A DNA stretch of 32,212 bases, from the NCBI GenBank assembly GCA_021785395.1, contig JAJYFO010000010.1, positions 1-32,212 of the forward strand. The letters are read 5' to 3'. Shown here piece after piece: positions 1,867 through 8,696 of this stretch. This DNA comes from a bacterium (GTDB taxonomy: Bacteria; Cyanobacteriota; Vampirovibrionia; Obscuribacterales; JAKAZS01). Each line of letters opens with the position of its first letter. Position 1 is the first letter of the stretch. Made by a program: the position numbers and the translations under genes. The notes below the pieces were generated by a model. The model saw only the letters and a list, made by a program, of their open reading frames with translations. It was not told the origin of the DNA and searched no databases.

Positions 1867-2175
1867 TTAATATATACCAAGTTCCAGCCTGGCGTCTTCG
1901 CTGGCCATAACTTTTGGATCCCAACGCGGTGACCAAACCAAATTGACCTTAACTTCTTTAACCCAAGGTAATTTTTTTATAGTCTGGTTAACCTGAGCCT
2001 GGATTACCGGGCCAATCGGACAAGCTGGAGAAGTTAAAGTCATATTGACGCTAACATTTTCATCTTGAATATTGATATCATATATTAAACCCAAGTCCAC
2101 AATATTGATACCAATTTCTGGGTCGACGACCGTTTTTAAACTCTCTTTCACTACATCTTCTAAAATTGAAGTCAT
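1867..2175 (-). CDS. sufT: SufT-like DUF59/MIP18 family Fe-S maturation protein
   Basis: This 102-residue protein is a stand-alone DUF59 (MIP18) domain, the family that includes SufT and PaaD-like factors, which help mature or carry Fe-S clusters. Visible signatures are DPEIGINIVDLGLIY near residues 18-32, MTLTSPACP near residues 45-53 with the conserved reactive Cys, and a C-terminal W-x-P-x-W with an ARLELG tail. It lies 6 nt after sufU and 3 nt before the nucleoside hydrolase gene, inside the SUF operon. Placement of a DUF59 gene at the end of a suf operon is common in Gram-positive and related bacteria, which supports the SufT assignment over a phenylacetate-pathway PaaD. Confidence 0.9.
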   Translation of the reverse strand: MTSILEDVVKESLKTVVDPEIGINIVDLGLIYDINIQDENVSVNMTLTSPACPIGPVIQAQVNQTIKKLPWVKEVKVNLVWSPRWDPKVMASEDARLELGIY

Positions 2176-2181
2176 TACATT

Positions 2182-2649
2182 TTACTCCTTGCTATTTTTT
2201 AAATTATCATTTTCCGTATTATTGCCTTCAATACATTGCAATAAGGTATTCCAAGCCAATAAGGCACATTTAATACGCACTGGATATTTTTTTACGCCGG
2301 CTAAGGCGTTTAAATCATCGTTTGTTTCATCAAAAACGGTAATTTCGTTTTTATTGAGCATCATCTGCTTAAATTCGCTAGCTATATTAATAGCTTTATC
2401 AAGGCTGAGCCCTTTAACGGCTTCAGTCATCATAGAACTCGAAGCAGTACTAATTGAACACCCTTTGGCTTCGACTTTAATGTCTTCAATAATATCGTTA
2501 TTTAGTTTAAGATACAAGGTTAACTCGTCGCCGCAAAGAGGGTTGAGTCCTTCGAGTTTTAAACTGGCAGAATTAATACTGCCAAAATTACGCGGGCAGT
2601 GGTAATGGTCTAAAATTGTTTCTTTATATAATTCATCTTGAAGCGACAT
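2182..2649 (-). CDS. sufU: SufU, zinc-dependent sulfurtransferase for SufS
   Basis: SufU is an IscU-like protein that accepts persulfide sulfur from the cysteine desulfurase SufS and passes it to the SufBCD scaffold. The 155-residue sequence shows the three conserved cysteines and the aspartate of the family: NPLCGDE near residue 39, GCSIST near residue 65 and RIKCALLAW near residue 127. The insertion between the second and third Cys, typical of SufU compared with IscU, is present. The start overlaps the sufS end by 17 nt, so translation is probably coupled to its partner enzyme. The C-terminus is an Asn/Lys-rich tail without obvious function. Confidence 0.94.
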   Translation of the reverse strand: MSLQDELYKETILDHYHCPRNFGSINSASLKLEGLNPLCGDELTLYLKLNNDIIEDIKVEAKGCSISTASSSMMTEAVKGLSLDKAINIASEFKQMMLNKNEITVFDETNDDLNALAGVKKYPVRIKCALLAWNTLLQCIEGNNTENDNLKNSKE

Positions 2650-3871
2650 GGCCCATAACCTTATAAGCGTTTTTAAGTGTTTTAACCAGAATATCGATAT
2701 CGTCTTCGTCGTTATAAATGTATAGACTGGCTCTTATGGTACCAGAGATATCTAGTAAGCGCATAAGTGGCTGGCAACAGTGGTGGCCAGCTCTTATAGC
2801 TACACCTTCTTCATTTATAACCTGGCCTAAATCATGAGGGTGAAGGCCTTTTAAATTAAACGAAATTACACTACCTCGGTTAATCGTATTAACTGGTCCA
2901 TAGAAAATTATATTTTCCTGGCCAGACAATTTTTCAAGGGCGTAGGCGGTAAGTTTTGATTCGTGCTTGGCAATATCTTTGTAGCCAATATTATTTATAT
3001 ATTCAATGGCTGTTTTAGCCGCAATAACATTAGCTATATCAGGTGTGCCAGCCTCAAATTTATACGGCAATTCATTAAAGGTAACTTTATCAAAATATAC
3101 GCTGGCTATCATGTTGCCACCGGTTAGAAAAGGCGGCATAGAGTCAAGCAAAGCCTCACGCCCCCATAAAATACCTACACCAGTGGGGCCAAGAATTTTA
3201 TGGAAAGAAAACGAAAGAAAATCACAGTTTAGTTTCTTAACGTCGATTGGCATATGCGCCACAGCTTGAGCGGCGTCAACGTGAACAATAGCTTTAAATT
3301 TATGAGCCAATTCAGTAATTGCTGTCAAGTCATTTATGACACCAAGGACATTAGACATTAAAGTAACCGATACGATTTTCGTTTTATCAGTAATTAATTG
3401 ATTCAAGTTACTTAAGTCAAGCCTAAAATCGGCTGTTAATGGAATATATTTAATTTTAACGCCTAATTCCTTAGACAATTCAAGCCATGGAACCAAATTG
3501 GCATGGTGTTCCATATGCGTTAATAATATTTCATCGCCAGGTTTTAAATTAAATCTAGCGTAAGAATAGGCAATAAGGTTAATTGACTCAGTTGTATTGC
3601 GGGTAAAAATAATTTCCTGACTGGCTTTGGCACCAATGAAATTTTGGGTAGCTACCCTTGTATCTTCGTAGGCTTGCGTAGCTTTTTGCGATAAGGTATG
3701 AATGCCTCTATGAATATTAGCGTTATAGATTTTATAATAATCAGATATGGCCTCGATAACACAGTTAGGTTTTTGCGTTGTGGCAGCATTATCTAGGTAA
3801 ACAAGGCGTTTTCCATTTACATTTTGGTTTAAAATGGGAAAATCAGCCTTAATTTTTTTAACGTCTAGCAT
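2633..3871 (-). CDS. sufS: SufS, group II cysteine desulfurase
   Basis: SufS is a PLP enzyme that removes sulfur from L-cysteine as a protein-bound persulfide for Fe-S assembly. The PLP lysine is in SFHKILGP (about residue 225), with the HVDAAQ Asp before it and MEHHANLVPW for the cofactor-stacking His. The active-site cysteine is in RAGHHCCQP (about residue 365); a second Cys follows directly. The ORF track opens at a GTG at 3895, but the ATG at 3871 is preceded by AAAGG at good spacing and gives the usual N-terminus (MLDVKKIKADFP), so I use it: 412 residues. It lies between the Rieske gene (10-nt gap) and sufU (17-nt overlap). Confidence 0.95.
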   Translation of the reverse strand: MLDVKKIKADFPILNQNVNGKRLVYLDNAATTQKPNCVIEAISDYYKIYNANIHRGIHTLSQKATQAYEDTRVATQNFIGAKASQEIIFTRNTTESINLIAYSYARFNLKPGDEILLTHMEHHANLVPWLELSKELGVKIKYIPLTADFRLDLSNLNQLITDKTKIVSVTLMSNVLGVINDLTAITELAHKFKAIVHVDAAQAVAHMPIDVKKLNCDFLSFSFHKILGPTGVGILWGREALLDSMPPFLTGGNMIASVYFDKVTFNELPYKFEAGTPDIANVIAAKTAIEYINNIGYKDIAKHESKLTAYALEKLSGQENIIFYGPVNTINRGSVISFNLKGLHPHDLGQVINEEGVAIRAGHHCCQPLMRLLDISGTIRASLYIYNDEDDIDILVKTLKNAYKVMGHVASR

Positions 3872-3881
3872 TTTTCGACCT

Positions 3882-4223
3882 TTAGGATTTCTCACAAATT
3901 AAAACTTTATCTTGAACAGTTTTAACGCAATAGGCTTTAATAGGTTTAACGGCCGGCAAGCAAACTTGTTTACCGGTTTTTAAATTAAATCTAGCACCGT
4001 GTTTTTGACATTCAATTTCTTCATCGTTAACTATTTGAGTTGAATTTAAAGGTACTTTTTGATGTGAACAGACATTTTCTACGGCGTAAAATTCGTTATT
4101 TAAATTAGCTACGATAATACTTAAATTATCATTACTCAATACTTTAACCGTATTTACTGGAACGTCAGAGAAATTAAGTTCAAAAATAATACTATCGATA
4201 CTAGAATTTAATGGATTATTCAT
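3882..4223 (-). CDS. Rieske [2Fe-2S] ferredoxin-like protein of the SUF operon
   Basis: This 113-residue protein has the two-loop Rieske cluster motif: CSH near residue 52, then CQKHG near residue 73, giving C-x-H and C-x2-H ligands for a [2Fe-2S] cluster. The rest matches the small soluble ferredoxin subunits of non-haem iron oxygenases, with no signal peptide or membrane anchor. It sits between sufD and sufS on the same strand. Rieske genes between sufD/sufC and sufS occur in other Terrabacteria suf operons, and a role as electron donor during cluster assembly or as a client of the pathway is an inference. No oxygenase gene is nearby. Confidence 0.88.
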   Translation of the reverse strand: MNNPLNSSIDSIIFELNFSDVPVNTVKVLSNDNLSIIVANLNNEFYAVENVCSHQKVPLNSTQIVNDEEIECQKHGARFNLKTGKQVCLPAVKPIKAYCVKTVQDKVLICEKS

Positions 4224-4252
4224 CTAACCAACCTCAACGCCTTTTTAAATAA

Positions 4253-5536
4253 TCAGCCAACAATGGACTTATCTAATTCCTCATCGATAAAGGCTCTTAA
4301 CATATCAAATAACTCACTTTGACTATAACGCTTAAATACCTGTTTTAAAAAGCCTTCAACTAAAAGCTTTTCAGCGTTAATCTTGCTTAAACCGCGACTT
4401 TGCAGATAAAATAACTGGTCTAAATCTATTTTACCAACAGTAGCTCCATGCGCGCATTTAACGTCATTAGCCAATATTTCAAGCCTTGGCAAAGATTCAG
4501 CGTGACAGTTTTTACCAAATAGCAAATTTTTATTTTTTTGCATAGCTTGCGTACCATTTGCCGTTTCGTCGACATAGATTGAACCTTGGTAAAAAGACCT
4601 GGCTGCGTCGTTTAAGGCAATATGATAATAAATATCAGACTGGGCGTTGGGCTTTAAATGATTGACGATAGTATTAAAGCTTAGATTATTATCGCGGTTT
4701 CCGTATGCTGAACCGTAAATAGAAACATTACTGCCGGTATTTAAATTAATTAAAATATCACTTTTAGTTTGAATACTGCCAAAACTAAAATTCAAATACT
4801 CTAGAGAACTATCCTTATCTTGGTCTACCAAAGACTTAGATACAAAAAAGGATTTGTCGTTTAAAATATTAAGCTCGGCTAGATATAGTTTAGAATTTTT
4901 ACCTAGTTTAATTTTGTTGACAATATTGCTCAAATTCAAACTTGTATCAATATCGCGGTTAAAATTGACCAGAATTATTTTTATACTGGAATTATCATTG
5001 AGTTTTAAGTAATTTAGGGTATTTATATTGGTGTTGGCTTCTGTATAAATAATCAGTGTTGATGTTATTTGACAATTAGCATTAACTTCAATACTTGTAC
5101 CATTATTACAGTAAGCGTGGTTGTAGAAATATAATTTATCGATTAAATCACTGTCCAGCCCAACTTTAAAATTAAAGTTAAAATCGTCTATTAAGCCTTG
5201 ATTATTCTTAAAGCAAGAATCGAGTGAATTAACCTTAATTCCGTCGATATTAGTAGAAATCACTGAACCGTTATTAGAATCGATAAAAACGCTGTCTTTT
5301 ATATACTGGTCTATATACTTAGACTTAAAATCGTAATTAGATTTTAAGTCAGTATCAATTATTCTATCGAGTTTAAGCTGACCAATATTAGAATACTTCC
5401 AGTTATTGCAAAATTCGGTGGGCAAATTTATCAAGTTATAATGCTTGAAATTAGCCAACCTAAATTTACTAAATGATTCGTTTTCATTTTTAAATTTAGG
5501 TAAATCTAAAACTACACTATTACTTAATGCTTCCAT
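4253..5536 (-). CDS. sufD: SufD, Fe-S scaffold subunit
   Basis: SufD pairs with SufB, and with the ATPase SufC forms the SufBC2D scaffold that builds [Fe-S] clusters. The 427-residue protein has a poorly conserved Asn/Asp-rich N-terminal half, then the right-handed beta-helix core, and the highly conserved C-terminus with KCAHGATVGKID, FYLQSRGLS and the helical SufC-binding end. The Cys and His of KCAHGAT match the SufD residues at the SufB-SufD interface. It begins 2 nt after the sufB stop, so the two are made together. The N-terminal half is very low in GC and rich in Asn, Leu and Ser, more diverged than the rest of the operon. Confidence 0.93.
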   Translation of the reverse strand: MEALSNSVVLDLPKFKNENESFSKFRLANFKHYNLINLPTEFCNNWKYSNIGQLKLDRIIDTDLKSNYDFKSKYIDQYIKDSVFIDSNNGSVISTNIDGIKVNSLDSCFKNNQGLIDDFNFNFKVGLDSDLIDKLYFYNHAYCNNGTSIEVNANCQITSTLIIYTEANTNINTLNYLKLNDNSSIKIILVNFNRDIDTSLNLSNIVNKIKLGKNSKLYLAELNILNDKSFFVSKSLVDQDKDSSLEYLNFSFGSIQTKSDILINLNTGSNVSIYGSAYGNRDNNLSFNTIVNHLKPNAQSDIYYHIALNDAARSFYQGSIYVDETANGTQAMQKNKNLLFGKNCHAESLPRLEILANDVKCAHGATVGKIDLDQLFYLQSRGLSKINAEKLLVEGFLKQVFKRYSQSELFDMLRAFIDEELDKSIVG

Positions 5537-5538
5537 AA

Positions 5539-6963
5539 CTAGCCAACCGACCCTTCCATTTCCAGTTTAATTAATCTATTCAATTCTACAGCGTACTCTA
5601 GTGGTAACTCTTTGGTAAATGGCTCAAAGAAACCATTTACAATCATGCTGGTAGCTTCATCAGCCGTTAAACCACGACTCATAAGATAAAACAGCTGTTC
5701 TTCGCCAACTTTAGAAACAGTCGCTTCGTGTTCGACGGTTACGTCGGTTTCTTCGACTTCCATGGTCGGATAAGTATCTGACCTAGACATATCGTCGAGC
5801 AATAAAGCGTCACATTTAACCGAACTCTTTACATTTTTTGCGTCTTCGTGGATTTTGACCAAACCGCGGTAAGAAGTTCTACCACCATTTTTAGATATCG
5901 ATTTAGAAACCACAAGCGAACTAGTATTAGACGCAACATGGACCATTTTAGCTCCGGCGTCCTGGTGTTGGTCTTCGCCGGCAAAAGCGATAGACAATAC
6001 TTCACCACGGGCATTTTCACCCATTAAATAGATAGCTGGGTACTTCATCGTCAATTTTGACCCAAGATTGCCGTCAACCCACTCTACTTTGGCGTTTTCG
6101 TAAGCGTAGGCGCGTTTTGTGACTAAATTATAGACATTTTTCGACCAATTCTGAATCGTCGTATATCTAATGTGCGAATTGGGCAGAGCTATTAACTCAA
6201 CCACGGCCGAATGCAAAGAATCGGTCGAATAAACTGGCGCTGTACATCCTTCAATATAGTGGACAAAAGACCCTTCGTCGGCGATTATCAAGGTTCGCTC
6301 AAACTGCCCCATATTTTCAGCGTTGATTCTAAAATAGGCCTGGAGCGGAATATCAACCTTAACACCTTTAGGCACGTAGACAAAACTACCACCTGACCAG
6401 ACGGCTGAATTTAAACTGGCGAATTTATTGTCATTGGCCGGGATAACCGTGGCAAAGTATTTTTTGACAATGTCTTCGTAAAGCCTTAAACCCGAATCCA
6501 TGTCTAAAAAGACGACACCTAATTTCTCTAAATCTTCACGTATAGAATGATAAACCACCTCAGACTCATACTGAGCGGTGACACCAGCTAAAAATTTGCG
6601 TTCGGCCTCAGGAATACCAAGTCTATCAAAGGTATTTTTTATCCCCTCGGGAACGTCGTCCCAATTAGTACCTTGTTTTTGCGATGGTTTGATGTAATAA
6701 AAAATATTAGCAAAATCGATTTCATTCAATAATTTAGTATTGCCCCAGTTTGGCATAGGTTTTTTGTAAAACATCTCCAAAGCCTTAAGGCGAAAGTCGA
6801 GCATCCATTGCGGCTCGTTTTTCATGGCCGAAATTTTACTGACAATTTCTGGGGTCAGTCCGCGACCAGATTTAAAAATGTAATCTTCAACATCGCTAAA
6901 TCCGTATTTATAATCTAATCCCATCTGGCTTAAATTATCCAGTGGTTTAAGTTCAGCTGACAT
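5539..6963 (-). CDS. sufB: SufB, Fe-S cluster scaffold core subunit
   Basis: SufB is the main scaffold of the SufBC2D complex, where persulfide sulfur and iron are assembled. The 474-residue length is normal. Visible signatures include [41 protein letters not shown] and, near the C-terminus, [22 protein letters not shown], with the conserved Glu that works with the assembly Cys. The ORF track begins at 7008, but AGGAGG followed by ATG at 6963 ([10 protein letters not shown]) is a far better start and leaves only an 11-nt overlap with the end of sufC. It is followed after 2 nt by sufD. Confidence 0.95.
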
Positions 6964-7729
6964 AATTGACCTCCTTGGTGGCATTATGGGCAAAGTGCTC
7001 GTAACCAAATTCTTCCAGCTGTAAAGCTAATTCTTTAGTGCCGGTTTGGGTTATTTGTCCATTCTCAAAAATATGGACGAATTGAGGACTTACATAGTTT
7101 AAAATACGCTGGTAATGAGTAATTAACAATACCGCTGAGCCAGCTTCGTTTAAAGCCGATATTCCGCTGGCGACAACTTTCAAAGCGTCAATATCTAGAC
7201 CCGAATCGGTTTCATCTAAGATAGCCAGTTTGGGCTTTAGCAGCGTCAAATGGAGTATTTCTAATTTTTTCTTTTCGCCTCCCGAAAAACCATCATTAAC
7301 ATAGCGCGATAAAAATTCGTCTTTAATTTCCAACTTGGCCATACTTTCTTTGAGCATGGCTTTAAGCTCTTTGATCGGTATTTCTCTGTCTAATACGGCT
7401 TTTAGGGTAGTTTTTAAGAAATTTAAAACAGTAACCCCCGGAATCGCTACAGGATACTGAAAAGATAAAGCCAAACCCATTTTAGCCCTTTCGTCAGGGC
7501 TTACGTCATTTATGTTGCGGCCGTTAAATTCAATTTGGCCTTCGCTAATTTCATACTTGGGGTGGCCCATAATGGTATAAGATAGCGTAGATTTGCCAGA
7601 GCCATTGCGACCCATTAAGGCATGGATTTCACCCGGGTTTATTTTAAGGCTAACACCTTTCAATATTTCTTTGCCGGCGGTTTTAACTTTTAGATTAGAA
7701 ATTTTAAGTCCTGATTCTTGCTTATTCAT
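6953..7729 (-). CDS. sufC: SufC, ATPase of the SUF complex
   Basis: SufC is a soluble ABC-type ATPase that drives shape changes in the SufBC2D scaffold. The 258-residue sequence shows Walker [10 protein letters not shown] (about residue 40), the Q-loop FQYP, the ABC signature [11 protein letters not shown] (about residue 148), Walker [13 protein letters not shown] with the SufC-specific Asp after Glu, and the H-loop ITHYQRIL. It is the first gene of the operon, transcribed away from sufR across a 304-bp control region. The end overlaps the sufB start by 11 nt. Having sufC first (C-B-D-S-U) matches cyanobacterial-like and some firmicute arrangements rather than the E. coli sufABCDSE order. Confidence 0.95.
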
Positions 7730-7828
7730 TTGAATTACCTTATATCTAGCCCAAGGGCGTTTTTGTATTTAAACCTTATAACAATGATATATTATATTAT
7801 TTTTGCCAGGAAGATTTAAAGGGGTAGG

Positions 7829-7857
7829 TTTACATTACAAGATTAAATGCTTATAAT
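7829..7857 (+). promoter_or_regulatory. Sigma-70-type promoter for sufR
   Basis: TTTACA at 7829-7834 and TATAAT at 7852-7857 are separated by exactly 17 nt, one mismatch from the full consensus. It points toward sufR. The -10 box lies inside the perfect palindrome, so a bound repressor would block RNA polymerase; this suggests autoregulation. Confidence 0.7.
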
Positions 7858-7868
7858 ACGTATTATAA
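7851..7868. promoter_or_regulatory. Perfect 18-bp palindrome, candidate SufR operator
   Basis: TTATAATACGTATTATAA reads identically on both strands. It lies between sufC and sufR and, by symmetry, places a TATAAT on each strand. Winged-helix Fe-S regulators of the SufR group bind inverted repeats in the divergent suf control region, so this is the obvious candidate operator. The assignment is by position and symmetry; the sequence is not the CAAC-N6-GTTG element described for cyanobacteria. Confidence 0.6.
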
Positions 7869-8033
7869 CAACTTTTGAGATATAATAGTATAAAAAGTAT
7901 TTAAAATCTATAAAAAAGTATTAAATCAATATAAAACACACCAAAGATAGTCACAAAGCTTAATTTTGTAGTAATTTAGCAAAGTATAATGATTTAACAT
8001 TGTTCATAAATTCCACACAAGCCTATTTAAACT

Positions 8034-8696
8034 ATGCCGAAAATAACTAATAAAATTAATTTAAGCAAACCAGAATCTAGTAAAGATTCTTTACTTATCC
8101 ATTTAAAAAATAACGGCGAATTAACCGTACCTAAATTATGCCAACTGCTAAACATTACTCCAATGGCCGTTAGACGTCATCTTAATGAATTGATGGTAAA
8201 CGGTCTTATCGAATCACGACAGGTTAAACAGGCAACCGGCAGGCCGGTTTACCATTACCATTTAAGCAACAAAGCAAATACACTATTTCCGTCCAATTTC
8301 CAAAATCTGGCCAATGAGTTATTACAAATAATTCACAAACAGTCGGGTCACAAAGGTGTAATGGATTTACTAGCCCAGCGTGATAAGGATAGACTGGCCA
8401 TTTACAAAGAAAAAATAAATGGCAAAAGTTTGGCCGAAAAAATAGTCGAAGTCGTCCAGATTTTTGCCAGCGATGGTTATATGACCGAGTACAAAGAAGT
8501 TGAAAATGGTCAATACATAATTTACCAAAAAAATTGTGCACTTCACGATATAGCTAAAACTTACCGTCAATTGTGCATTTTAGAACCAAGGTTTATTGAA
8601 TCGTTATTGGGTGTTAAAGTAATCCGCACCGAATATATGCTCAAGAACTCACCAGTATGCGCTTACCTGGTAACGACCGAAGCGTTAAAGACTTAA
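8034..8696 (+). CDS. sufR: SufR-type Fe-S-sensing winged-helix repressor of the suf operon
   Basis: The 220-residue protein has a DeoR/ArsR-like winged helix-turn-helix at residues 18-75 (LTVPKLCQLLNITPMAVRRH, then a wing with ATGRPVYHY). The C-terminal domain carries cysteines at about 168, 181 and 209. The C-x12-C spacing of the first pair matches the cluster-binding region of SufR proteins; the third Cys is 27 residues further, and a fourth ligand is not obvious. SufR binds an Fe-S cluster and represses suf transcription when clusters are plentiful. It is divergent from sufC, with a palindrome between them, as expected. No clear ribosome binding site precedes the ATG, so the start is less certain than the gene. 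Confidence 0.85.
   Translation: MPKITNKINLSKPESSKDSLLIHLKNNGELTVPKLCQLLNITPMAVRRHLNELMVNGLIESRQVKQATGRPVYHYHLSNKANTLFPSNFQNLANELLQIIHKQSGHKGVMDLLAQRDKDRLAIYKEKINGKSLAEKIVEVVQIFASDGYMTEYKEVENGQYIIYQKNCALHDIAKTYRQLCILEPRFIESLLGVKVIRTEYMLKNSPVCAYLVTTEALKT

Follow-up and report, generated by a model that had tools for sequence, protein, structure and literature searches.

In Cyanobacteria, SufR is a repressor of sufBCDS and of its own gene (PMC8593673), and the known SufR site, CAAC-N6-GTTG, is that of Synechocystis sufR/sufBCDS (Shen et al. 2007, as cited in PMC8593673). In Mycobacterium tuberculosis, SufR (Rv1460) represses its suf operon and requires the cysteines C203, C216, and C244 (PMC6034842). 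Here we analyzed the region between sufR and sufC in a 32,212-nucleotide stretch of DNA (contig JAJYFO010000010.1; "the window" means this whole stretch) from a member of "Candidatus Obscuribacterales," an order of non-photosynthetic Cyanobacteriota. We found a 27-base-pair (bp) element that is conserved throughout the order and overlaps a TATAAT box. We give a probability of about 0.78 to the reading that this element is the one operator of the divergently encoded SufR, with its dyad lying over the sufR -10 box, and that a more eye-catching palindrome beside it is not. The features concerned are as follows.

7872 to 7898, plus strand: the 27-bp element CTTTTGAGATATAATAGTATAAAAAGT (consensus in the order, TTTTAtAGATAtAATAGTATCAAAAAT), proposed as the operator of SufR from its conservation and co-occurrence
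7879 to 7892, no strand: imperfect dyad GATA-TAATAG-TATA (order consensus GATA-N6-TATC, 4-N6-4), from column pairing
7881 to 7886, plus strand: TATAAT, candidate sufR -10 box embedded in the element, from the promoter scan
8034 to 8696, plus strand: gene for a SufR-like regulator of 220 amino acids with a DeoR-type winged helix and Cys168, Cys181, and Cys209, from a profile match

The arrangement resembles that of the cyanobacterial SufR operator in its divergent sufR and suf genes, its intergenic site, its 4-N6-4 dyad, and its DeoR-type SufR with iron-sulfur (Fe-S) cysteines. It differs in the half-sites, which are CAAC/GTTG there and GATA/TATC here; in having one site, whereas there are usually two about 40 bp apart there; in the -10 box embedded in the element; and in the neighboring suf gene, which is sufC here and sufB there. 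M. tuberculosis SufR has three cluster cysteines at the same spacing as the regulator described here, but Rv1460 heads its own suf operon and is not divergent from it.

To describe positions, we call the first base of the element (window 7872) E. The comparison set consisted of 46 sufC-sufR (or sufR-upstream) regions; of the 53 genomes of the order, 46 have a suf-type SufR and 7 do not. Identity and dyad statistics were taken from 38 non-redundant intergenic regions. We found TTTTAtAGATAtAATAGTATCAAAAAT in 46/46 anchored regions, with 0 to 5 mismatches. Mean pairwise identity was 89% across the element, compared with 40% in the preceding 50 bp and 34% in the following 50 bp, and the regions differ by hundreds of bases in how far the element stands from the sufR start. 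When we searched whole genomes with a degenerate pattern and allowed at most one mismatch, the element turned up in 46/46 genomes that have a suf-type SufR and in 0/7 that lack one; just three additional one-mismatch matches occurred in all 53 genomes. The host genome has no exact match other than the element itself, and weaker matches occur there at about the control frequency. Its near-single copy and its presence with suf-type SufR thus make it a near-unique site tied to sufR. We also considered a wider regulon, which we rejected: relaxed searches yielded essentially one site per genome.

Within the element, pairs 4 to 7 around a center at E+13.5 were complementary in 84 to 100% of the sequences, and this is, by a small margin, the best dyad center of the alignment. 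The resulting GATA-N6-TATC has the 4-N6-4 inverted-repeat geometry in the order. The typical SufR genes of photosynthetic Cyanobacteria served as a positive control: CAAC-N6-GTTG lay upstream of 37/37 of them, often as a pair of sites spaced by about 40 bp. It occurred in 0/44 Obscuribacterales regions, and we rejected it as the operator here. A first-pass annotation of this DNA had suggested a new SufR operator between sufR and sufC that departs from the CAAC type. We agree that a non-CAAC, promoter-overlapping operator is very probably there, at 7872 to 7898 and not at the palindrome that was named.

The regulator gene is adjacent to the suf genes and divergent from them. Its product matches TIGR02702 (SufR_cyano) over nearly its full length (16-213; E value, 8.9e-32) with 110.5 bits, below the equivalog cut-off of 178.8; we therefore call it SufR-like and not a certified equivalog member. 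Its N-terminal DeoR-type winged helix-turn-helix scored 28.7 bits against PF08220 (cut-off, 21). Cys168, Cys181, and Cys209 are spaced 13 and 28 residues apart, as are the three required cysteines of the M. tuberculosis protein. We found this motif in 45/46 suf-type sequences of the order, the exception (L020) being cut by a contig end. The recognition helix reads T-[SAPE]-M-A-V-R-R-H in 45/46 Obscuribacterales suf-type sequences. Elsewhere it begins [ST]-x-Q-A in Cyanobacteria ([ST]-[PKL]-Q-A or S-V-Q-A) and reads T-[HD]-T-A-V-R-R-H in Obscuribacterales paralogues. In a tree, some forks of which are weak, the suf-type and paralogous SufR proteins of the order group separately from those of Cyanobacteria. 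We found no close relative of SufR with a solved structure.

According to the model that we propose, the cluster-bearing form of SufR, a dimer, would occupy the GATA-N6-TATC-type dyad and so cover the sufR promoter's -10 box. Since the element covers this box, binding would block the promoter, and sufR would be repressed. Under iron or Fe-S cluster shortage, apo-SufR would release the site, and transcription would rise. Control of sufC may also be exerted from this site.

The annotation had instead assigned the operator role to a palindrome overlapping a near-consensus promoter, and it had seen a second TATAAT in the palindrome, directed toward sufC. The features of this part of the region are as follows.

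7851 to 7868, no strand: perfect palindrome TTATAATACGTATTATAA, 18 bp, fully symmetric, not conserved, from the sequence, Markov expectation, and genus comparison
7829 to 7857, plus strand: TTTACA-N17-TATAAT, 11/12 match, possible lineage-specific sufR promoter
7791 to 7820, minus strand: TTTAAA-N18-TATAAT, the best minus-strand match and best candidate sufC promoter in the genus
7842 to 7847, no strand: ATTAAA (cTTAAA in the order), a second conserved block at a near-fixed distance from the element (E-30 to E-26, about 70 to 89% conserved)

The palindrome and the overlapping plus-strand promoter match are both there as described. Among the 12 promoter-like sites of a 3-kilobase region (shuffles give 11.4 +/- 3.3), that match ranks first; its -10 box is kept in both other genomes of the genus (G001 and G002), and its TTTACA -35 box is not kept in the genus. 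The minus-strand TATAAT is present too, but it has no good -35 box, and there is a better sufC match at 7820-7791. The position of the latter is kept in the sister genome G001, and its -10 box lies at E-76 in L001 and E-73 in L002. We did not find an order-wide conserved sufC promoter: minus-strand sigma-70 matches show no strong clustering at any single position, and this candidate is confined to the genus.

TTATAATACGTATTATAA is the longest perfect palindrome of the window (the runner-up is 16 bp and intragenic) and has no other match there with up to 3 mismatches. Under a first-order Markov model with matching composition (24% G+C), 1.5% of 304-bp sequences contain a perfect 18-bp palindrome; the same type of model predicts about 0.1 over all intergenic DNA of the window and about 0.3 per window. 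The palindrome is real and mildly unusual, and it is not striking alone. The element begins four bases past it, and both lie in a 58-bp block (7841-7898) with only four substitutions within the genus, though the intergenic regions otherwise differ widely. Three of these four fall in the palindrome (7860, 7865, and 7868), and every one breaks a symmetric pair, the aligned sequence in G001 and G002 being TTATAATACATATTTTAC.

Could the palindrome nevertheless be a SufR operator, recently remodeled in the host species and controlling both directions? Its full symmetry at the 1.5% level, its overlap with an 11/12 promoter match, and the retention of its left half within the genus speak for this. 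The conservation check gave the opposite result: neither of the same-genus genomes keeps the symmetry, and the palindrome is absent from the compared intergenic regions of all other genomes of the order. Its half-site also differs from that of the conserved element, and near matches in the host genome (3 mismatches or fewer) number 15, the same as for a reversed control pattern. Because conservation is lacking and near matches are at background, we rejected the palindrome as the operator, and we regard its recent remodeling into one as quite improbable. It may be a gain in the host species or a loss in the two sister genomes, and it is most likely a species-specific symmetric extension beside the operator, without a role of its own. 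We give still less credence to the binding of a Fur-family regulator (PerR or Fur) to the palindrome or to the element as a lineage-specific site. There are four Fur-family proteins in the host genome, PerR represses sufCDSUB in Streptococcus mutans (PMC11631912), and the palindrome shares its 7-bp arms (TTATAAT/ATTATAA) with the PerR consensus TTATAATnATTATAA. However, the arms are separated by 4 bp here and by 1 bp in the PerR box (7-4-7 against 7-1-7), the palindrome lacks conservation, the host genome has PerR-like boxes at the background level (24, compared with 26 for the control), and the presence of the element tracks suf-type SufR.

Two further explanations concern the element itself. 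It could be a strongly conserved sufR promoter only (-10 box and start region) with no regulator site. Consistent with this, position 3 of the embedded TATAAT is the variable one across the order, as in a -10 box, and a plus-strand sigma-70 scan placed the best -10 box at this hexamer in 18/38 regions; TTGA-like hexamers lie 16 bp upstream of it in a number of genomes of family f2. The invariant columns, however, extend well beyond the hexamer, to TTTTA-AGA on the left and AGTATCAAA on the right, and there is little conservation in the -35 region (37% identity). Near-invariance over 14 to 27 bp throughout the order, together with near-uniqueness in each genome, would not be expected of a bare promoter, and we consider this explanation unlikely. 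Alternatively, SufR bound at the element may repress sufR but activate the suf operon or leave it alone. The element lies over the sufR -10 box, but it is upstream of the genus's best sufC promoter, at a distance of about 50 bp, and the ATTAAA block stands on the sufC side at a near-fixed distance. We hold this to be a minority possibility that deserves some weight. Since the best sufC promoter is kept at 7820-7791, the one site may serve both directions or only that of sufR. The cTTAAA block and a third block, TTAAnnAT, may serve as UP-type, promoter, or leader elements. The latter stands at a near-fixed distance from the element, at about E+47 (window about 7919 to 7926), and the blocks occur at the same places in L002-L048.

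We base the assignment of the 27-bp element as the SufR operator on conservation, location, geometry, and co-occurrence, and several observations weigh against it. The dyad is imperfect, and in the host genus its right half is TATA and not TATC, which leaves one mismatched pair. No recognizable -35 box lies 16 to 18 bp upstream of the TATAAT at 7881 in the window, and the conservation of the element is partly just that of a -10 box. The regulator's TIGR02702 score falls short of the equivalog cut-off, as noted above. The roughly 50 bp between the element and the best sufC promoter make the route to sufC control uncertain. Finally, distant cyanobacterial paralogues with the helix [ST]-[PA]-M-A-[VI]-R-Q-H showed no GATA dyad.

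This last result also contradicts the idea that the helix methionine is the sole determinant of GATA. Other SufR loci carry other half-sites. AAAC-N6-GTTT was found upstream of 5/7 SufR genes in one cyanobacterial family, and upstream of Obscuribacterales SufR paralogues that lie opposite a ferredoxin gene we found ACAC-N6-GTGT (L049, L052, and L053) and CCAC-N6-GTGG (L050). We think the chances are about even that SufR-family operators keep the 4-N6-4 geometry while the half-site has changed several times within Cyanobacteriota (CAAC, AAAC, ACAC/CCAC, and GATA), in step with the two residues that start the recognition helix. On the same evenly balanced reading, the GATA half-site of the Obscuribacterales, fused with a -10 box, would be the most divergent. 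If true, this would amount to a readable specificity code for an Fe-S sensor.

Some details of these other loci are recorded here. In L049-L053, the second SufR-like gene is divergent from a 4Fe-4S ferredoxin gene, and the dyad (imperfect in L051) stands just before an AT-rich, -10-like box. In the small-genome cyanobacterial family f35 (L157, L158, L160, L161, and L162), AAAC-N6-GTTT replaces CAAC-N6-GTTG, and the helix is S-V-Q-A/V-M-R-R-H. L047 has a third kind of SufR paralogue, with the helix T-Y-M-G-V-K-R-Y; we found neither sufC nor a ferredoxin gene adjacent to it and no matching dyad. In the window, the suf genes opposite the regulator are as follows.

6953 to 7729, minus strand: sufC (TIGR01978, 314.6 bits, over the cut-off)
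1867 to 7729, minus strand: suf cluster sufC-B-D-Rieske-S-U-T, sufC first, the other genes assigned by TIGR and Pfam; sufU precedes the last gene, which is SufT-like
3882 to 4223, minus strand: Rieske-type ferredoxin gene within the cluster, between sufD and sufS

The region also holds a caution: the perfect palindrome caught the eye, but the conserved element was its plain AT-rich neighbor. If our assignment is right, the element provides a strongly conserved, testable predicted SufR site for non-photosynthetic Cyanobacteriota, in which a regulator that they have in common with photosynthetic Cyanobacteria would read a different DNA word.
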